Shown one piece after another: positions 791 to 10,196 of a stretch of DNA of 10,646 nucleotides. A program made the position numbers and the translations under genes. The notes under the pieces were generated by a model. It was not told where the DNA came from, ran no database searches, and saw only the letters and a list, made by a program, of their open reading frames with translations. Origin of the DNA: Mycobacterium sp. (lineage in GTDB: Bacteria; Actinomycetota; Actinomycetes; Mycobacteriales; Mycobacteriaceae). Positions within the stretch are counted from its first letter, which is position 1; the number at the start of each line of letters is the position of its first letter. Location of the stretch: the NCBI GenBank assembly GCA_025965815.1, contig JAOPWF010000823.1, positions 1 through 10,646 on the forward strand, given 5' to 3'.

Positions 791-1141
791 CTATATGACG
801 AACCTGCGTTTCCGGGTGCGCGGAACATGCGCGCCAGCGAGGCTCTGCCCACCGACACCTTCGTGGTCGACATCCCGCCAGAAATCGGTGTCGTAGTCGG
901 TGTCCGGGATCAGGATCTTCTCGGCGGACGGCTGGGGTTGGGTGAGCCCGCGTGTCATCTCCAGCTCTTCGGCGTCGATGTCGAGCCGGTCGACGTCGTT
1001 GAGGATGCGTTCGGCGTCATTGACGAGGCGACGCATCGCCGGCGCGTCGCCGTAGCTCGACACCAACGATGTCACGCACCGCCGCAACCCGTCGATCAGC
1101 TGGTGAAGCTCGCCGACGTCGGTGGTAGTGGTGGTGGTCAT
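791..1141 (-). CDS. Conserved hypothetical protein, 116 aa, linked to the transporter
   Basis: I cannot name a characterised family. The chosen ATG at 1141 follows AAGGAG with a 5-base gap and gives 116 residues. There is a Thr-rich start (MTTTTTTD), a helical acidic middle (about residues 8-55: LHQLIDGLRRCV, then AMRRLVNDAERILNDVDRL), a motif-like IPDTDYDTDFWRDVDHEGVGG stretch split over residues 78-98, and a basic tail ending RTRKRRFVI. No signal peptide or membrane segment is seen. The frame stays open upstream, and an ATG at 1225 also has a good site (GAGGAG, 6-base gap), which would add 28 low-complexity residues. It lies 119 bases behind the OFA transporter on the same strand, so it is probably in that operon. 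The soluble, acidic, helical character could fit a small partner of the transporter or dehydrogenase, but that is a guess. Confidence 0.72.
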   Translation of the reverse strand: MTTTTTTDVGELHQLIDGLRRCVTSLVSSYGDAPAMRRLVNDAERILNDVDRLDIDAEELEMTRGLTQPQPSAEKILIPDTDYDTDFWRDVDHEGVGGQSLAGAHVPRTRKRRFVI

Positions 1142-2616: not shown

Positions 2617-3298
2617 TCCTATTGCATACAGTATGCGAAGAGTTTAACGTGACGTGGATCACTTGTCTACAGGAAGCCGACTACGCGTCAGCCGACGCGC
2701 CCGGCTTGCCAAACTGCATGTGACCGACAGCATGGCCGCTATCTCGGAAACCCAACCGACTCCTGAAACCAAAGCTGCGCGGGGGCGAGGTGGATCGGAG
2801 ACGGGACACGTCTCTAGTCGACGCGGGATGTTTCGGCTTGCCGGCCCAGAGGCCTTCGTGCGGCCGGACACTGCGGGTGGGCGAGGAGCCTCAATTCCGA
2901 ATCGGCGAGCGGCCAGCCGCTGGTGTCGGTAGCGAAGCAGGTTTTGCCCCAGCCGTTTTCACCCGTGCGCCGTAGTGGCGCACAACGGTGCGGACGTATG
3001 CCTTGGCGATGTCCGCATGCCTCCAGGGCTTCGGAGGAGGTCCTCTGGGCGGTTATCGCCAGCGCTCGGGGTGGCCGGAGGCTCAGTAGTTGAACCGAGG
3101 GTTGTGATGGCCCAACTACGTCGACAGCCACGCAGCGAGTGGTTACGCATTCCCGCCGCGATACCAGCCAAGCAGCACGGCCACCGCGAATGGGATCGGC
3201 GGTCGTCGATCTCGTCCGATACCGCCGCTATGGAACACCGCATGCAGCCGTATGGCGTTCAGCGAAACGAGCAAACGAATGACACTTGCGCGCAGATT
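2617..3298. other. Intergenic stretch with no assignable gene
   Basis: This is the first part of the gap between the two divergent transporters. It holds the transporter 1 operator (2624-2636) and then about 660 bases in which several short frames are open on both strands, none with a convincing ribosome site plus a recognisable product. On the minus strand, frames over about 2820-3130 read through segments such as GENGWGKTCFATD and, in another frame, DIAKAYVRTVVRHYGARVKT. These look protein-like but I cannot assign them, and they lie in different frames, as expected if this is a decayed gene. It is too long for an ordinary promoter region in this gene-dense locus. Confidence 0.5.
2624..2636. 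promoter_or_regulatory. Putative operator, site 1 (transporter 1)
   Basis: GCATACAGTATGC is a perfect 6+1+6 inverted repeat centred on base 2630, ending 13 bases upstream of the transporter 1 ATG. It would overlap the start region of a short leader, a position suited to repression. Four relatives occur at 3299, 3378, 6721 and 8818. The likely binder is the GntR/FCD protein encoded at about 5094-5822; this is an inference from locus and site form. Confidence 0.65.
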
Positions 3299-3311
3299 GT
3301 ATGTAGTATAC
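3299..3311. promoter_or_regulatory. Putative operator, site 2 (transporter 2, distal)
   Basis: GTATGTAGTATAC matches the pattern of site 1 with an imperfect left arm and the invariant right-half form GTAT-N-C. Its right arm contains TATACG, a possible -10 element, so a bound protein would cover the promoter. It lies 79 bp centre to centre from site 3. Confidence 0.5.
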
Positions 3312-3320
3312 GTTCCCTGT

Positions 3321-3497
3321 GTGACCGAGACCACTCTCCGTACCATTGCGAGGAATAGGTCACATGTGGGGAATGTCGTATGCAGTATTCGTAGTGATCA
3401 TGCCCACTCGTCGGGCAAGCCGTCACTGAGCAACCTGTGGCCCAAACCAGTCCTGAGCCGGTTACAGGGGAACCGGAAGGAGATTGCAGCACAATGA
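3321..3497 (+). CDS. Possible leader ORF coupled to transporter 2
   Basis: A frame opening with GTG at 3321 (VTETTLRTIARNRS...) runs 58 residues and ends in a TGA that overlaps the transporter ATG (ATGA, 3494-3497). There is no ribosome site before the GTG, but a TATACG hexamer ends 8 bases upstream, so a leaderless transcript starting at or next to the GTG is possible, a common arrangement in actinomycetes. The product resembles nothing I know, and operator site 3 lies inside it. It may simply be a chance frame; the ATGA overlap is the main argument for it. Confidence 0.22.
   Translation: MTETTLRTIARNRSHVGNVVCSIRSDHAHSSGKPSLSNLWPKPVLSRLQGNRKEIAAQ
3378..3390. promoter_or_regulatory. Putative operator, site 3 (transporter 2, proximal)
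   Basis: GTATGCAGTATTC follows the same 6-A-6 pattern, with one arm mismatch, and lies 103 bases upstream of the transporter 2 ATG. The flanking C and G extend the symmetry by one pair. Two sites in front of one gene suggest cooperative binding or a loop between them. Confidence 0.5.
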
Positions 3498-4882
3498 ATT
3501 CAACAGCGCCGCCGAGTTTCCGAGAAGTAGTCGACAGTAACGGCAGGGTTTACCGGATCGGGGAGACCGACCGCGACATCCTAGGGCGTTCACGGGTGTG
3601 GATGGTGTGGCTGCCGTGGATCGCCATGATGGCCATCAGCTCGTCCGAATACGCGTTCACCTCGGCCGAAGAGACCCTCTCCGAGGCACACGGCTGGCAC
3701 GGCAGCCACATTTTCTGGTTGCTGGGCGTATGGGTGTTCTTCCAGGCCGCGGTAGCGTTCCCCGCCGGCCGACTGCGGGAAAGCGGCAGGCTGTCCGCCC
3801 GCTCGGCGATGATGTTCGGTGCGGTGGGGGCATTCCTGGGCTACCTGTCGTTGGCATACGCGCCGAACGTCTTCTGGGCCTACCTGGGATTCGGCTTCTT
3901 CGGCGGAACCGCGGCCGGCTTCGTCTACGCCACCTGCGTCAACATGGTGGGCAAGTGGTACCCGGAACGTAAGGGCGGAAAGACTGGTTTCGTGAACGGC
4001 GGGTTCGCCTACGGGTCGGTGCCCTTCATCTTCCTGTTCACCTCGTACCTGGATGTCAGCAACTACGAGGGACTCCTCCTCGCGGTCGGCGTCTTTCTGG
4101 CCGCGTTGGTGGCTGTGAGCGGGTTCTTCTTCAAAGACCCGCCGAAAAATTGGTGGCCCGCGCATGTCGACCCGCTGCGTGCCAGTGACGACCCGCGGAT
4201 TGCTCGGGCGCTGCGGAAGAATCCGCCCGCGGTGAAGCAGTACACACCGATGGAAGCCATCAAGACCGGAATCCTTCCGTTGATGTGGTTCGTCCTGCTC
4301 TGCACCGCCGGCATCAACATCTTCGGCATCGCCATGCAGGTGCCCTTCGGCAAGGAGATGGGCTTCGCCGGTGGGATCGTGGCGCTCGCGATGAGCCTCA
4401 AGGCCATCATCAACGGCACGGGGCGCGGCGTGATCGGCTGGATTTCCGACCGGTTCGGGCGGCGGGAAACGCTCATCATCGTGTGCGTGGTGCTGGGGCT
4501 GTCCCAGTACGCGGTGTTCCTGTCCGGCTCCATCGGCAGCATGCCGCTGTTCCTGCTGGCGTCGATGGTCTCGGGCTTCGGTGGCGGCGCGATCTTCCCG
4601 CTGTTCGCGGCGATGACCGCCGACTACTTCGGTGAGAACAACAACGCGACCAACTACGGCCTGGTCTACAGCTCGAAGGTCATCTCCGGCCTGGTTGGTG
4701 CCGGTTTGGGATCGGTCGTGGTGGACACGTGGGGTTACGGCGCCGCGTTCATGATCGCCGGTTCGGTCGGCGTCTGCTGCGCCTTCCTGACAATCCTCCT
4801 CCGTAAGCCCAAGCTGCCGCAGCCGCAGCAGCGGGCGCCGGAGGAGGAGGAGAAAGAGCCTGCGGCGCTAGTGCTCGACTAG
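3494..4882 (+). CDS. OFA-family (oxalate:formate antiporter-like) MFS transporter 2
   Basis: A 462-residue, 12-segment MFS protein, clearly paralogous to the transporter at 1261-2610. Matching landmarks are REVVDSNGRVYRIGETDRD in the cytoplasmic N-terminus (10-28), YATCVNMVGKWYPERKG (145-161), KDPPKNWWPAHVDP in the central loop (214-227), SDRFGRR (318-324) and TADYFGENNNATNYG (375-389). Arg311 (NGTGR) and Lys395 (YSSK) fall where OxlT has its substrate-binding Arg and Lys, by inferred alignment. The C-terminus is a soluble Pro/Gln/Glu-rich tail (about 438-462). ATG at 3494 is chosen because the N-terminus then aligns with both paralogues; its site GGAAGGAG is 11 bases away, rather long. Two operator-like repeats lie upstream and a strong hairpin terminator downstream, so it is probably a single-gene transcript. 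Oxalate/formate exchange is the best guess for function. Confidence 0.9.
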   Translation: MNSTAPPSFREVVDSNGRVYRIGETDRDILGRSRVWMVWLPWIAMMAISSSEYAFTSAEETLSEAHGWHGSHIFWLLGVWVFFQAAVAFPAGRLRESGRLSARSAMMFGAVGAFLGYLSLAYAPNVFWAYLGFGFFGGTAAGFVYATCVNMVGKWYPERKGGKTGFVNGGFAYGSVPFIFLFTSYLDVSNYEGLLLAVGVFLAALVAVSGFFFKDPPKNWWPAHVDPLRASDDPRIARALRKNPPAVKQYTPMEAIKTGILPLMWFVLLCTAGINIFGIAMQVPFGKEMGFAGGIVALAMSLKAIINGTGRGVIGWISDRFGRRETLIIVCVVLGLSQYAVFLSGSIGSMPLFLLASMVSGFGGGAIFPLFAAMTADYFGENNNATNYGLVYSSKVISGLVGAGLGSVVVDTWGYGAAFMIAGSVGVCCAFLTILLRKPKLPQPQQRAPEEEEKEPAALVLD

Positions 4883-4913
4883 CGTCCGCGGTGGCTCGCG
4901 GGCAAAGAGTCAG

Positions 4914-4964
4914 CACCCCGGGTGTGGGACAGGTCCTGGTCAGGACTTTCCCGCACCCGGGGTG
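4914..4964 (+). terminator. Strong hairpin terminator after transporter 2
   Basis: Arms CACCCCGGGTGTGGGA (4914-4929) and TCCCGCACCCGGGGTG (4949-4964) pair over 16 bp with one G-U wobble. The loop itself contains a second pairing (AGGTCCTG with CAGGACTT). A T-rich but interrupted tract (tctgtctttc) follows. It lies 31 bases after the transporter stop and shields the GntR gene from read-through. Being almost symmetric, it could also act on the other strand. Confidence 0.85.
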
Positions 4965-5044
4965 TCTGTCTTTCAAGGGTGAGTCCGGCCCGGCGGTTTC
5001 AAGTGTTGCCAGAACGGCTACTCCTAGCGCTTCAGCGGTTCATT

Positions 5045-5076
5045 GCATACGAAAACCTGTACGCTGATCTGCGTAC
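5045..5076. promoter_or_regulatory. Palindromic region before the GntR gene
   Basis: GTACGCTGATCTGCGTAC (5059-5076) is an 18-bp inverted repeat broken only at one symmetric pair. A GCATAC half-site lies at 5045-5050. The half-sites resemble those of the five 13-bp operators, but their order and spacing differ: GCATAC and GTACGC start 14 bases apart rather than 7. This fits autoregulation by the GntR protein, possibly in another binding mode. It ends just before the ribosome site AAGGAG at 5082-5087. Confidence 0.55.
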
Positions 5077-5093
5077 TTAGGAAGGAGACTGCT

Positions 5094-5822
5094 ATTTCCC
5101 GTCCCGTCCCGACCCGTCGCGAGCCTGGCCAGGCTTCGCGTGATGCGCTGGCCGACGGAGCCGCGCGCCGGGTGCAGCGCCCCGCGCCCCTGCGCCAGGC
5201 CGTCTACGACGCCATCGTGGAACTGATTGTGAACGGAACCCTGCAGCAGGGCCAGCACCTGGTCGAGAACGAGCTGGCGGAGTATCTGGGTGTCAGCCGT
5301 CAGCCGGTGCGCGAAGCCTTGCAGCGCTTACAGACCGACGGCTGGGTTGACCTTCGTCCCGCGCTGGGCGCTTTCGTGCACAGCCCTACCGAGGAGGAGG
5401 CGGACCAGCTTCTCGGCGTCCGATCGGTCCTGGAAACCTATTCCGCCCGGCTCGCCGCCGAGCGTGCCACCGCAGAGGACGTCAACCGGCTGTGGGAGTT
5501 GCAGCAGGACGGGCTGAACGCGCTGGCCGCCAACGACATCGAGGGGCTTGTGGCGGCGAACGCGGCCCTGCACGCCAGGATCAATGCGCTCGCGGGCAAC
5601 ACCGTGCTAGCCGAGCACATCGGACTCGTCGAACGCAGGTGGCGTTGGTACTACCACCTGATCGCGCAGCCGCGCGGCCAGGACGCCTGGTCAGAGCACG
5701 CCGAACTGATCAAGGCGATCGCGGCCGGGGACCCCGAATGGGCGAGCAAGATCATGAGCCAGCACACGGAGCGGACTCGGCAGGTGTACCACGAGCAGCG
5801 GCTTGCCAAGTCTGACTCTTAA
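5094..5822 (+). CDS. GntR-family (FCD/FadR-type) transcriptional regulator
   Basis: The N-terminal winged helix-turn-helix spans about residues 33-97 (LRQAVYDAIVELIVNGTL, then LVENELAEYLGVSRQPVREAL), followed by a helical FCD ligand domain (about 100-235). Histidines at about 161 (LHARI), 202 (SEHAELI) and 224 (QHTERT) match the metal-binding histidines of that fold, whose ligands are often small carboxylates. The start is uncertain. No ATG exists in frame. ATT at 5094 lies 6 bases after AAGGAG and gives 242 residues, the family's usual length. TTG at 5043 has no ribosome site and would place the upstream palindrome inside the gene. GTG at 5172 gives 216 residues and trims the N-terminus to just before the DNA-binding domain. 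The gene stands alone between a terminator and convergent fdhD and is the only regulator in view, so it probably controls this locus. Confidence 0.9.
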   Translation: MSRPVPTRREPGQASRDALADGAARRVQRPAPLRQAVYDAIVELIVNGTLQQGQHLVENELAEYLGVSRQPVREALQRLQTDGWVDLRPALGAFVHSPTEEEADQLLGVRSVLETYSARLAAERATAEDVNRLWELQQDGLNALAANDIEGLVAANAALHARINALAGNTVLAEHIGLVERRWRWYYHLIAQPRGQDAWSEHAELIKAIAAGDPEWASKIMSQHTERTRQVYHEQRLAKSDS

Positions 5823-5851
5823 CGTTGCGTCAGCACGCCCAGCATGGACGA

Positions 5852-6694
5852 TCAGCATCGCAGCGCCTCGCCGATGGTGATCCGCTCGCCGGCGGAATAG
5901 ACGTTCATTGACGATCCGCGCAGGAAACCGATCAAAGTCAGGCCCATCTCTCTGGCCAGATCCACGGCCAGCGACGACGGCGCGGACACCGCGGCCAAGG
6001 CGGGGATCCCGGCCATCACCGCCTTCTGCACCAGTTCGAAGGACGCCCGGCCACTCACCATCAAAGTCGTGCCGCTCAGCGGCAGGCGGCCGGCGCCGAG
6101 CGCCCAGCCGATGACCTTGTCCACCGCATTGTGCCGACCGACGTCTTCCCGCACGCACCACAAGTCCCCGCTAGCGTCGAACAGTGCTGCCGCATGCAAC
6201 CCGCCGGTGCGGTCGAACACCCGCTGAGCCGCCCTGAGTTTCTCCGGCAGGGTCGCGATCGTCGCGGCGGTCAGGCGCAGCGGATCACCATCGACGCGCC
6301 ACTTGCTGATCGTGCGCACCGCCTCGAGGCTGGCCTTGCCGCACAAGCCGCACGATGAAGTCGTATAGAAGTTGCGTTCCAGCGACGGGTCCGGGAGGGG
6401 AACGCCGTCGTCGAGGAGCACGTCGACCACGTTGTAGGTGTTGCCGCCGTCGGCGACCGCTCCCGCGCAGTACCGGATTGCCGCGATGTCCGAGTCGCCC
6501 GCCACCACGCCCTCGCTGACCAGAAAACCGCGGGCCAGATCGAAGTCGTCCCCCGGGGTCCGCATCGTCACCGTGAGCGGACGACCGGCCACCCGGATCT
6601 CCAGGGGTTCTTCGGCGGCAAGGGTGTCCGGGCGGGCCGTCGCCATCCCGTCGGACATGCGTAGTACTTGGTATCTGCTGGTCACGCGTCCCAC
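5852..6694 (-). CDS. fdhD: Formate dehydrogenase accessory sulfurtransferase FdhD
   Basis: A 280-residue FdhD protein. The family carries sulfur from a cysteine desulfurase to the bis-MGD molybdenum cofactor, which formate dehydrogenase needs for activity. The paired cysteines are present as CGLCG (Cys115 and Cys118). Other family blocks are [20 protein letters not shown] (29-48), [19 protein letters not shown], the [13 protein letters not shown] segment, the [19 protein letters not shown] block and [13 protein letters not shown]. The start is GTG at 6694, with GGGAG 7 bases upstream, giving [13 protein letters not shown]; the frame stays open far upstream, but that part only mirrors moeA. 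It is divergent from moeA with a 54-base gap holding one operator, and convergent with the GntR gene (29 bases between stops). Its job is presumably to activate the formate dehydrogenase at the window start. Confidence 0.95.
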
Positions 6695-6720
6695 TGTCAC
6701 ACTCCCGATAGGTGTATGGT

Positions 6721-6733
6721 GTACACAGTATAC
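6721..6733. promoter_or_regulatory. Putative operator, site 4 (fdhD/moeA)
   Basis: GTACACAGTATAC sits in the 54-base gap between divergent fdhD and moeA. The right half is the common GTAT-N-C form. It contains the palindrome AGTATACT (6727-6734), which gives a TATACT hexamer on both strands. On the minus strand this would make a good -10 element for fdhD, so one bound protein could control both genes. Confidence 0.6.
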
Positions 6734-6748
6734 TGCACTGGAGGACCG

Positions 6749-7891
6749 ATGCAGGTTCCGTGGCCAAAGGCACGGCGTATCGCCCGTGAGGTCGCAAAAC
6801 CCCTCGACGCCGTCCAGCTTCCGCTCGACGAAGCCGTTGGCGCGGCACTGGCAGGCCCGCTGTGCGCCCGTTTCCCGCAACCGCTGGGTGACGTCGCGGC
6901 GATGGACGGATACGCCGTGGCGGGTCCAGCGCCGTGGCAACTGACCGGCCGGATACTGGCGGGCGATCCGGCCGGTGTAGCGCTGTGTCCGGGGCAGGCG
7001 ACGGAGATCGCCACCGGCGCCGTCGTCCCACCTCGGGCCGATGCAGTGGTTCCGTACGAGCGGGCCGAGCGCAATGGCCACCGTGTCACCGGGCCGCTCG
7101 GCGAGCGGGCGCACATCCGCCAGCGTGGAGAGGACTTCGAGGCGGGGGAGACTCTCGTGACGCGCGGTTCGGTGGTGACACCTGCGGTCGTCGGAATGGC
7201 CGCCGGGATCGGCCAGGACGACCTGTTCGTCCATCGCCGGCCCCGCGTGCAGGTGCTGATTACCGGGAACGAGCTGCTCTTCAGCGGGCCGCCGCGGCCT
7301 GGCCGGGTCCGTGACGCCATCGGCCCGATGCTGACCGGTCTCGTGCGCGCGGCCGGCGGCGAGATCTCCGCCACCGCCCACCTGCACGACGACCCAGCCG
7401 CGCTCGCGGACGCGTTGGACCGTAGCGAACCGGACGTCTTCGCGGTCTGCGGAGCCACTTCGGCCGGCGCCGCCGACCATCTGCGGTCCGCTTTGAGGCG
7501 GGCGCGCGCGGACATCGTCGTCGACGGGGTGGCGTGCCGGCCAGGTCACCCGCAGATGCTGGCCACCCTGCCCGGCGGCGGGTTCGTGGTCGGCCTGCCG
7601 GGAAATCCCTACGCGGCGCTGGTCGCCGTGCTCACACTGCTCGCCCCCTTGCTGGGCAGTCTCGCCGGGCGGAACACCACGCCCGCGGTCACCGCGACGC
7701 TGGCGCCGGGTCCGGCCCCGCACGTGCGGGACACCCTGCTGCTGGCCGCCGTGCGTCGTGGCTCGATCGTGGTGCCGGTCGGCCACGATCGGCCCGGCAG
7801 CCTCCGCGCACCGGCAATGGCCGATGTTCTCGCCGTCCTCCCACCGGATTGGCCGGGCGGCCAGGTCGAGTTGCTGCCACTCGCCGGTTGA
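6749..7891 (+). CDS. moeA: MoeA-like molybdopterin molybdenumtransferase
   Basis: A 380-residue MoeA-family protein; MoeA inserts molybdate into adenylylated molybdopterin in the last shared step of Mo-cofactor synthesis. Family blocks in order: [13 protein letters not shown] (45-57), [17 protein letters not shown] (88-104), [12 protein letters not shown] (123-134), ITGNEL (171-176), [11 protein letters not shown] (234-244), RPGHPQ (264-269) and GLPGNPYAA (282-290). Some are off-consensus: TGNEL for the usual TGDEL, CGATSAG for GGVSVG-like, and RPGHP for the KPGKP-type lysine motif. It may thus be a specialised paralogue rather than the cell's housekeeping MoeA. The ATG at 6749 follows TGGAGGA with a 3-base gap. 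It is divergent from fdhD with a shared operator and convergent with the carbonic anhydrase (58 bases between stops). Confidence 0.88.
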
Positions 7892-7949
7892 CTGTCGCCG
7901 TCTCGGCGCCGCCGGCCGCGCGAATCTGGCGCCTGAATCTGTCTTAGCG

Positions 7950-8681
7950 TCAACAGATTTCGTGAAGTTCGCCCGTCTTCTCGTCGAAGGAGAATCCGCG
8001 GATGCCGTTGGTTTGGCGCAGGAACGGGGTGTTACACAGGCGCGCCACACCCCGGCGTGCCTCCGCCGTCACGTCGCGGAAGGTTCCTGCGCGCCAGGTC
8101 GGGCAGAGGCCGACGTCTGCCTGGACCGCGGCGGTGAATTGTTCGTCGGTGATGTCGCGCAGCCCGCAGGCGGTGTGCATGATGACCATGACCTCGGTGG
8201 TCTCAAGCAGGCGTTGACTGATGGTGAGAGATCGGATCACACCGTCGGTCACCACGCCGCCGGCGTTTCGCAGGATGTGGGCGTCACCTTCGCTGAGTCC
8301 GGGCAGCGCGTACACATTGATTCGGGCGTCCATGCAGGTCACCACCACCACGCCGGTCTTCGGCTTTTTGGGCGCACCGGGTTGGAACTGGGCCCGGTAG
8401 CGGCGGGCATTGGCCAGTAGCGCATCTGTCCGAGCGGAAAATGCTTGGGTCCATGGCGTCGGCGTGCCGTCGTGGCGCGATACCGGCCAATCGCGCCACG
8501 CAGCGTCGGTTTTCGATTCGATCCCGCGGCGAGTCGGCGTGCCTGTTTTTCCGGTGGAGTTACTTCGGGGCCCTGCAGGATTCTCGGCCGCAGTGTGCTC
8601 GATCCCGAGGCCGTGTACCTGACATTTGAATGCATCTGCTGATGTCTCCTCGTGCGACGTGAGGTCCCCTGTCTGGGCCAC
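7950..8681 (-). CDS. Beta-class carbonic anhydrase (start uncertain)
   Basis: The conserved domain spans 7950 to about 8438 (162 residues) and resembles the short actinobacterial beta-carbonic anhydrases such as Rv1284. The zinc motifs are intact: CMDAR (Cys116, Asp118 in this numbering) and HTACG (His169, Cys172), with [17 protein letters not shown] between them and a C-terminal [16 protein letters not shown]. It converts CO2 and water to bicarbonate. There is no ATG, GTG or TTG in frame between GTG at 8681 and the GTG run just before CMDAR, so the call at 8681 implies about 81 extra N-terminal residues with no recognisable fold. A well-placed ATG (8637, after GAGGAG) is in another frame. 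Either the extension is real, an unusual start is used, or the 5' end is frameshifted. In context it would handle CO2 made from formate and oxalate. Confidence 0.85.
8471..8500. repeat. Perfect 10-bp inverted repeat (hairpin)
   Basis: CGTGGCGCGA (8471-8480) and TCGCGCCACG (8491-8500) pair perfectly around a 10-base spacer. It lies just upstream of the conserved carbonic anhydrase domain, within the doubtful N-terminal extension. No T-tract follows on either strand, so an intrinsic terminator is unlikely. It could be a hairpin in an untranslated leader or a mobile-repeat remnant. Confidence 0.6.
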
Positions 8682-8817
8682 ACGTTTCCGGAGCGACCGT
8701 GCGGAGAGTTGCCATCGCCCCCTCAACGTGGTGTGGCGGTCGGTTCGCAGACGTCTTCGCGAAAACTCGCCGCAACCCTAGACAAGAGTTGTTGCGTAGG
8801 CCACACTGTTGTCTACC

Positions 8818-8830
8818 TCATACGGTATGC
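8818..8830. promoter_or_regulatory. Putative operator, site 5 (frc and carbonic anhydrase)
   Basis: TCATACGGTATGC contains the perfect inverted repeat CATAC-G-GTATG and matches the other four sites except for G at the centre and T at the first position. It lies 103 bases before the frc leader ORF, between frc and the divergent carbonic anhydrase. A separate 7-bp inverted repeat, TAGACAA (8779-8785) and TTGTCTA (8809-8815), lies beside it. Confidence 0.6.
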
Positions 8831-8932: not shown

Positions 8933-8974
8933 ATGGTTCAGACGGCGGTCCTCCTGGAGGACTCTCGTGGGTAA
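8933..8974 (+). CDS. Short leader peptide ORF overlapping the frc start
   Basis: ATG at 8933 follows AAGGGAG with an 8-base gap and encodes [13 protein letters not shown], then TAA at 8972-8974. The end overlaps the frc GTG (8967) by 8 bases in another frame, and the frc ribosome site GGAGG lies inside it. This is the classic layout for translational coupling: ribosomes finishing the leader would re-start on frc. The peptide has no regulatory residue run that would indicate attenuation. Confidence 0.5.
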
Positions 8975-10196
8975 GGCGCTGGACGGCGTTCGCGTACTCG
9001 ACATGACACATGTCCAGTCGGGTCCCTCCGCTACGCAACTGCTCGCCTGGCTCGGCGCGGACGTTATCAAGTTGGAGGCGCCGGGAAGCGGAGACGTCAC
9101 CAGGAGTCAGCTTCGCGACGTGCCGGGGGCCGACAGTCTGTACTTCACGATGCTGAACTGCAACAAGCGCAGCATCACCCTCAACATGAAGAGCGACGAG
9201 GGGAAGCAGGTCTTCACCGATCTGGTGTCCCGCGTCGACGTCCTTGTGGAGAACTTCGGCCCAGGCGTTGTCGACCGGTTCGGCTTCACTTGGGAGCGGC
9301 TGCATGAACTCAACCCGCGGTTGATCTATGCCTCGATCAAGGGCTTCGGCCGCGGTAAGTACTTCAACTTCAAAGCCTATGAAGTCATCGCGCAGGCGAT
9401 GGGTGGCTCCATGGCTACCACCGGGTTCGAGGACGGGCCGCCCACAGCGACCGGCGCACAGATCGGTGACTCGGGGACCGGCATCCACTTGGTCGCGGGG
9501 ATCCTGGCCGCGCTCTACCAGCGCACGGACACCGGTCGTGGGCAGCGTGTCGAGGTCGCCATGCAAGAGGCCGTGCTCAACCTCTGCCGGGTGAAGCGGC
9601 GCGACCAGCAACGGCTCGCGAGCGGCCCGCTCCGCGAGTACCCAAACCAGCACGTCAGCGACGAGGTCCCGCGATCGGGCAACGCGTCCGGCGGCGGCCA
9701 ACCAGGATGGGCCGTCCGGACCAAGGGTGGCGGTCCCAACGACTACATCTACGTGATCGTCCAGCCTCAGGTCTGGGCACCGCTGGCGGAACTGATCGGC
9801 CGGCCCGACCTCGCCGACCATCCCGACTGGGCCCGGCCCGACGACCGACTTCCCAAGCTGGACAAGGTGTTCGCGCTCATCGAGGACTGGACCGAGCAGC
9901 ACACCAAGTGGGAGGCCTTGGACGCGCTCAACGCCCTCAACGTCCCCTGTGGTCCGGTGCTCGGTGCGAGGGAACTGATCGAGGACGAAACACTGGCCGA
10001 TCTCGGCGCGATCGTCACCGTCGACCACCCCGAGCGGGGCCCGTACAAGACCGTTGGCTCTCCGCTGCGGCTGTCGGACTCCCCAGTGGACGTCATCCGT
10101 TCGCCGATGCTGGGCGAGCACACAGACGAGATCTGCACAGAGCTCGGCTACTCGCCGGAGCAGCTGGAGCTGTTCAGGAGTGCCGGAGCCATCTAA
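8967..10196 (+). CDS. frc: Formyl-CoA:oxalate CoA-transferase
   Basis: A 409-residue class III CoA-transferase closely matching Frc of Oxalobacter formigenes (428 residues). It moves CoA from formyl-CoA to oxalate, giving oxalyl-CoA and formate, the entry step of oxalate breakdown. The N-terminal [20 protein letters not shown] contains Gln17 at the known position. The catalytic aspartate is Asp168 in [13 protein letters not shown]. Also present are [31 protein letters not shown], the glycine loop GGGQPGW (242-248) and the C-terminal LGEHTDEI. Position 48 is Gln where the Oxalobacter enzyme has Trp. The GTG at 8967 has GGAGG 6 bases upstream and gives the expected N-terminus [12 protein letters not shown]. 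It is preceded by an overlapping leader ORF and an operator-like repeat. No oxalyl-CoA decarboxylase gene follows within the window. Confidence 0.96.

Follow-up and report, generated by a model that had tools for sequence, protein, structure and literature searches.

The stretch analyzed here (the window) is a 10,646-nucleotide piece of Mycobacterium sp. DNA that carries genes for oxalate and formate metabolism together with a regulator of the GntR superfamily that has an FCD effector domain (GntR/FCD). The short repeats in front of these genes are part of an operator system over oxalate and formate genes that is real and conserved, acts partly in trans and uses two unit spacings, and comparison of sequences points to the GntR/FCD protein as its most likely owner. 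We consider it likely that this protein controls oxalate uptake and breakdown with the formate branch, as well as its own gene, through operators of these two spacings, most likely by repression. GntR/FCD had been proposed as the owner in a first-pass annotation of this DNA, and comparative genomics strongly supports the proposal through co-occurrence of motif and protein. When 148 genomes, the window's own among them, were searched for GntR, a match at E ≤ 1e-30 was present in 19 of them and one at E ≤ 1e-75 in 11. The exact palindrome was present in 10 of the 11 genomes with a close GntR, compared with 20 of the 137 genomes without one (Fisher p 3e-7, relatedness ignored). We strongly infer that the sites are operators that the GntR/FCD protein would bind.

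Operator sites and their seven-base-pair register

The window makes up all of contig C442 in a draft genome (5.66 Mb, 877 contigs, ~81% complete). The five sites of the first-pass annotation were recovered at 2624 (GCATACAGTATGC), 3299 (GTATGTAGTATAC), 3378 (GTATGCAGTATTC), 6721 (GTACACAGTATAC) and 8818 (TCATACGGTATGC), and by our reading of the window each of them is intergenic, as had been claimed. The automatic gene caller missed moeA, so that site 4 was filed as coding, in a false antisense open reading frame. The pattern GYATRCNGTATNC was matched exactly by sites 1 and 3 and with one mismatch by sites 2, 4 and 5. At up to two mismatches it had 18 matches in the window, in a count where palindromic sites score on both strands, against a shuffle mean of 4.04 (standard deviation 2.31, largest 13); none of 200 shuffles reached 18. 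The operators and the genes proposed as their owner and targets are listed below; the gene callers were home-made, and gene borders and starts are approximate. OFA transporters belong to the major facilitator superfamily (MFS).

2624–2636, no strand: operator 1, GCATAC-A-GTATGC, 13 bp upstream of the OFA1 start; the same 13-mer precedes an OFA1 relative in L066
3299–3311, no strand: operator 2, GTATGT-A-GTATAC, upstream of OFA2; kept in 6 of 12 aligned relatives
3371–3390, no strand: operator 3, a weak GAATGT and then the direct pair GTATGC-A-GTATTC, upstream of OFA2; in the same 6 of 12 relatives with 1–2 base changes
6714–6733, no strand: operator 4, three units GTATGG-T-GTACAC-A-GTATAC, in the divergent fdhD/moeA gap
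8811–8830, no strand: operator 5, three units GTCTAC-C-TCATAC-G-GTATGC, in the gap between the carbonic-anhydrase-like gene and frc; the 13-mer also precedes a frc-like gene (L067) and an OFA gene (L066)
5094–5822, plus strand: gntR, which encodes the GntR/FCD regulator proposed to own the operators; both Pfam domains, GntR and FCD, exceed their gathering scores
1261–2610, minus strand: OFA1, OFA-family MFS transporter, proposed target; TIGR00890 163.6 bits, below the cut-off of 374.85, with Pfam MFS_1 above gathering score
3494–4882, plus strand: OFA2, OFA-family MFS transporter, proposed target; TIGR00890 193.9 bits, below cut-off
5852–6694, minus strand: fdhD, formate dehydrogenase accessory sulfurtransferase, proposed target; NF001943 392 bits (cut-off 269), start inferred from the L098 relative
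6749–7891, plus strand: moeA-like gene for the molybdenum cofactor, proposed target; Pfam MoeA_N and MoCF_biosynth score above threshold, NCBIfam models do not reach their cut-offs
8967–10196, plus strand: frc, formyl-CoA transferase, proposed target; TIGR03253 634.7 bits (cut-off 504.2)

A comparison of gaps in related genomes had been suggested by the first-pass annotation. Of 12 relatives aligned over the 400 bp upstream of OFA2, six retain sites 2 and 3 (L068, L093, L094, L096, L097, L098), with little else conserved nearby; the other six lack them at the aligned position (L066, L067, L089, L090, L091, L092).

A matrix built solely from the five window sites was applied to the best 79 loci of a scan of named genomes, which carry GntR relatives of 58–86% identity and come from Mycobacterium, Amycolatopsis, Kutzneria, Streptomyces, Lentzea, Saccharothrix, Actinoplanes, Nocardia, Pseudonocardia and other genera. 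L091 and L147 were dropped as duplicates of G066 and G070, leaving 77 loci in which intergenic sequence makes up 12.5% of the bases. Loci within a genus are related, so that counts and p-values here and below are not independent. At a score of at least 16 the matrix found 150 intergenic and 5 coding sites, in 69 of the 77 loci, while 60 mirrored column permutations gave means of 0.17 intergenic (largest 1) and 1.47 coding matches. At a score of 14 it found 190 intergenic and 9 coding sites against a permutation mean of 3.27 intergenic.

The operator unit is GTATRC. Units keep a register of 7 bp, the majority inverted and some direct, and they often come in groups of at least three. Exact units (GTATGC or GTATAC) in 88 loci numbered 470 between genes and 153 within genes, and intergenic unit pairs, counted in these loci without any matrix, cluster at 7, 14 and 21 bp. 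Exact inverted pairs (GCATAC..GTATGC) occurred 32 times at 7 bp and 20 times at 14 bp, direct pairs 4 and 9 times, and pairs of opposite order not at all at either spacing; a scrambled-unit control gave 0.05–0.35 pairs per spacing. With one mismatch allowed per pair, in 92 loci, the inverted counts were 178 at 7 bp, 149 at 14 bp and 22 at 21 bp, compared with 0–14 at twelve other spacings. Relaxed units show two more spacings, the opposite order at 11 bp (20 pairs) and the direct order at 18 bp (22 pairs). In the window, a third unit in register matches at 5 of 6 bases in sites 4 (6714) and 5 (8811) and weakly, at 4 of 6, in site 3 (3371).

Each site might instead be a plain 13-bp palindrome that a single dimer occupies, with the extra in-register units irrelevant, a reading that we regard as possible while leaning away from it. 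The inverted pair GCATAC-N-GTATGC is indeed the commonest order, and 79 of 176 non-overlapping sites fit best as inverted pairs (65 are ties). Against a lone palindrome, 32 of the 176 fit better as direct pairs, as does site 3 of the window (GTATGC-A-GTATTC); further direct units at +7 number 36 in 352 arms, compared with about one per background offset; and gntR is commonly preceded by pairs at 14 bp that lack a middle unit.

The gntR operator and a proposed mode of action

The description of the operators in the first-pass annotation held for the five sites, which are real, and was incomplete in two respects: the 7-bp register of units and a separate operator before gntR had both been overlooked. 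This sixth operator is as follows.

5043–5065, plus strand: proposed autoregulatory operator of gntR, TTGCATAC-GAAAACC-TGTACGCT, read also as GCATAC-GAAAACCT-GTACGC at 5045–5064; two units 14 bp apart, the second overlapping a -10-like TACGCT

The 14-bp form, TTGCATAC[C/G]AAAACCTGTAT[G/C]CTGA, stands before 71 of 106 gntR genes (62 loci) with its AAAACC spacer conserved, and 13 genes have a 7-bp pair in this stretch. Among 61 aligned cases, 58 carry TANNNT within the second unit, which fits a -10 element. Gaps faced by gntR alone hold 23 pairs at 14 bp without a middle unit versus 2 at 7 bp, compared with 13 at 14 bp versus 139 at 7 bp before other genes (Fisher p 1e-17 between the two classes, loci not independent); gaps that gntR shares with a divergent gene hold 56 and 28. 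At up to one mismatch the 19-bp core of the operator was found in 5 of the 148 genomes, one match each and always before gntR, and it was absent from 6 of the 11 genomes with a close GntR. Two mismatches added 2 further matches, both in genomes without a close GntR. The apparent gntR start codon at 5094–5096 reads ATT, where the four compared relatives (L066, L089, L092, L098) have ATG; it may be a rare start or a sequence variant.

In the mechanism that we propose, GntR/FCD would bind GTATRC units 7 bp apart in front of its targets, mostly as GCATAC-N-GTATGC, sometimes as direct units, and frequently in sets larger than two. At its own gene it would read two units 14 bp apart, across the conserved AAAACC spacer, over the -10 region. 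Repression would most likely come from covering the promoter, with release when oxalate or a near derivative (glyoxylate, oxalyl-CoA) binds the metal site of the FCD domain. Sites 1 and 4 lie within 13–19 bp of start codons and are therefore suited to repression. The protein would thus be an autoregulated repressor of oxalate use, where repression is a weaker inference than ownership of the sites. A more specific version is offered tentatively. One FCD regulator may read two GTATRC codes, 7-bp arrays at the oxalate genes, occupied by packed dimers, and a 14-bp 'skip-one' pair with a fixed AAAACC spacer at its own promoter. It could in this way set its own level separately from the regulon, and it would sense oxalate directly, chelated to metal in the pocket of the FCD domain.

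Activation is possible because many sites lie ~100 bp or more from predicted starts. The median distance is 95–150 bp for several targets, given that caller starts are approximate, and this counts against simple repression; in the window, OFA2 begins ~180 bp past site 2 and ~100 bp past site 3. We nevertheless think it unlikely that GntR/FCD is an activator or dual regulator rather than a simple repressor, in view of the closeness of sites 1 and 4 to their start codons and of the overlap between the gntR operator and a -10-like element.

Proposed regulon and probable ownership of the sites

Candidate target genes of the proposed GntR/FCD repressor were counted as genes within 350 bp of intergenic sites scoring at least 14 in 93 loci, a site between divergent genes counting for both. 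One representative of each of nine groups, all but gntR, OFA, frc and fdhD, was named by NCBIfam.

gntR: near a site in 42 loci
2-dehydropantoate-reductase-like gene (panE-like): 43 loci
Thiamine pyrophosphate enzyme of the acetolactate synthase / 2-hydroxyacyl-CoA lyase / oxalyl-CoA decarboxylase group: 28 loci
frc: 21 loci
OFA transporters: 18 loci
Succinyl-CoA-ligase-beta-like gene: 18 loci
Acyl-CoA-dehydrogenase-like gene: 18 loci
lysR: 16 loci
fdhD: 11 loci
pntA: 8 loci
Formate dehydrogenase alpha: 8 loci, in other genera
Hydroxypyruvate isomerase-tartronate semialdehyde reductase fusion: 6 loci
PAS protein: 5 loci

According to excerpts of one study, Methylobacterium extorquens has in panE2 a CoA-acylating glyoxylate dehydrogenase, and Cupriavidus necator has a homologue near frc-oxc (PMC7486775); by analogy, the panE-like gene probably encodes an oxalyl-CoA reductase.

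A site had been predicted before oxc, and the window's own genome has an exact one on contig C872 before a lysR gene that precedes oxc (an oxc fragment at the contig end, 420.8 bits to TIGR03254). Another exact site, on C291, precedes a frc remnant and an OFA gene that is next to a second gntR (65% identity); the frc-like remnant (L029:2692-3000) is flanked by the OFA gene and an intact operator (2509). Sites also stand between pntA and panE in G066, G070 and G059. Among the ten GntR-bearing genomes that have the exact GYATACNGTATRC, all 14 sites are at gntR-bearing loci or at these oxc/panE loci. Control appears to be partly in trans, because sites also occur at oxc and panE loci unlinked to gntR. 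Of the 'local' oxalate/formate regulon of the first-pass annotation, the regulon is supported by comparative genomics, and it is wider than local, reaching the unlinked lysR-oxc and panE-pntA loci. A tandem site on C876 (L031:4132-4158), with 3–4 units in the 7-bp register, lies downstream of an NAD-dependent formate dehydrogenase gene without a clear target; a similar gap in L070 leads to gntR.

Alternatively, GntR might be a mere neighbor and the sites those of the LysR whose gene lies beside oxc, or of some other regulator nearby, for instance an IclR-like protein. In favor of this, lysR adjoins oxc and has a site before it in the 16 loci counted above, and we read an IclR-like gene in the sequences of L098 and L070. 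We compared lysR loci and oxc loci, in each case from 30 of 43 matching genomes. A site scoring at least 14 was present at none of 24 lysR loci from genomes without GntR versus five of six with it, and the oxc loci gave the same counts (0 of 24 versus 5 of 6). The motif is also retained with distant GntR relatives. G082 and G027, whose GntR relatives have 42 and 41% identity, carry two strong sites each (18.8 and 17.6) at an operon with a weak RutB-like hydrolase, an ATP-binding cassette transporter and a gamma-glutamyltransferase-like gene, and no oxalate gene was recognized in it; the two loci are orthologous and therefore count once. Given the empty lysR loci and a motif that seems to go with GntR even at 41–42% identity, ownership by LysR or another neighbor is very improbable. 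A TGATAACCGGCGTTTATCG-like inverted repeat between lysR and oxc (L030:3375-3400) is a candidate LysR site.

That the repeats are chance matches to a short degenerate pattern, which the genome-wide abundance of the 13-mer at one mismatch might suggest, is contradicted by their clustering in gaps in 69 of 77 loci, by footprint conservation and by the matrix-free 7-bp register, and we give it practically no credence.

Several results weigh against GntR/FCD as the owner of a conserved operator system. Single permuted matrices reached 25 coding matches at a score of at least 16 and 132 intergenic matches at a score of at least 14. An intergenic site scoring at least 16 is absent from 8 of the 77 loci (L101, L111, L122, L134, L148, L150, L161, L163). 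In 11 genomes the strict 13-mer at one mismatch gave 103 matches and its reversed control 66; G066 and G091 showed no excess. A pattern search of the window's own genome with the 13-mer at one mismatch gave only a modest excess, 58 + 37 matches against 36 + 25 for the reversed control. The lysR/oxc comparison is confounded, as most of its GntR-less loci are of a more distant lineage, and G110 is cut by a contig end. G059 has GntR yet no site scoring at least 14 at its lysR or oxc, and seven loci with GntR relatives of 36–41% identity have no site of that score. The site predicted before the fds operon was absent from the two loci in which the promoter was located (L068 15500–19001, L098 17900–20687); the window's own fds promoter lies beyond the contig end.

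Exact matches in 8 of the 20 GntR-less genomes having one (L080–L087) are not at any recognized oxalate gene. In GntR-less G001, GTATACAGTATGC at L083:6212 precedes an enoyl-CoA hydratase gene and is perhaps another regulator's site; this 13-mer recurs in ~10 GntR-less genomes of the genus. In GntR-less G053, overlapping palindromes GCATACGGTATGC and GCATACTGTATGC, 11 bp apart, lie before a response-regulator-like gene (L082:6552-6575).

The window also holds the end of fdsA and fdsD, from an NAD-type formate dehydrogenase operon, along with the two OFA transporters, GntR/FCD, fdhD and the moeA-like, carbonic-anhydrase-like and frc genes. Curated cut-offs are passed by frc and fdhD; the OFA and moeA assignments fall below NCBIfam cut-offs. 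A putative third OFA gene starts at the window edge, with 42 residues present and no family match. A small protein gene (791–1141, minus strand) lies near fds and has a similar protein at L098:13050-13376. At 8933–8974, the GTG start of frc is overlapped by a 13-codon open reading frame that has a ribosome-site-like AAGGGAG of its own. This frame could be a leader or an N-terminal extension that has been frameshifted, as Frc of L098 is longer at its N-terminus.

The GntR/FCD protein and known systems

The regulator is a member of the FCD (FadR) subfamily of the GntR superfamily, with a GntR winged helix (PF00392, 67.1 bits, gathering score 27) and an FCD effector domain (PF07729, 86 bits, gathering score 24.3). 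Its closest named relatives are from Mycolicibacterium and Mycobacterium. A structure model with a mean predicted local distance difference test score (pLDDT) of 85.7 resembles the FCD structures PmiR, AlkR/VanR, Atu1419 and TM0439. Counting from the codon at 5121, N147, H151, H193 and H215 do not vary among 13 relatives, and the three histidines align with histidines of 7xp0. The Asn and three His metal-ligand pattern of FCD regulators is thus present, and its residues mark a putative metal site. Oxalate is a strong metal chelator, which makes a metal-bound oxalate effector plausible; the effector is probably a metal-bound carboxylate, a proposal made with less confidence than ownership of the sites.

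For oxalate use in actinobacteria, with Mycobacterium, Amycolatopsis, Streptomyces and Lentzea among the genera covered, these results provide a candidate regulator, an operator code and a list of genes. One switch would govern both of the likely routes, the decarboxylation that yields formate and the reduction that yields glyoxylate. With unit spacing that differs between the targets and gntR, the way in which FCD dimers pack on DNA could be tested directly. In the open-access literature, no GntR-type regulator of oxalate genes was among the matches listed.

The comparisons that follow rest on excerpts of the cited papers. A comparative review of the FadR subfamily gives a general operator signature, GT-Nx-AC, and a common TKGT/ACMA palindrome as consensus, and its main text has no word starting with 'oxal' (PMC4494728). 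Each GTATAC unit fits this signature with x = 2; the center of the whole 13-mer is AC-N-GT, and half of the units end in GC. HypR of Streptomyces coelicolor is an autoregulated, metal-binding actinobacterial FCD repressor of a small-acid pathway, as we propose for the window's GntR, but it differs in its motif, CTNTGC(A/C)ATGTCAC, and in its hydroxyproline target genes (PMC6608401). Atu1419, a VanR-type FCD repressor of hydroxycinnamate genes in Agrobacterium fabrum, binds zinc through an Asn and three His (PMC7797058). The window's GntR shares with it this residue pattern, the fold and palindromes over -10 regions, and the Atu1419 operator ATGTATACAT has the GTATAC core of the window units; unlike the units at 7-bp pitch seen here, Atu1419 operators are single 10-bp palindromes 109–190 bp apart (PMC7797058). 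NanR, the FCD sialic acid repressor of E. coli, offers a parallel to the array; its fold match to the window's GntR is weak. Several NanR dimers pack on repeated short units, (GGTATA)3, much as the regular array at 7, 14 and 21 bp would allow; NanR, however, is described with direct repeats only (PMC8012715) and serves the sialic acid pathway, whereas the inverted order dominates here and direct units are the minority.

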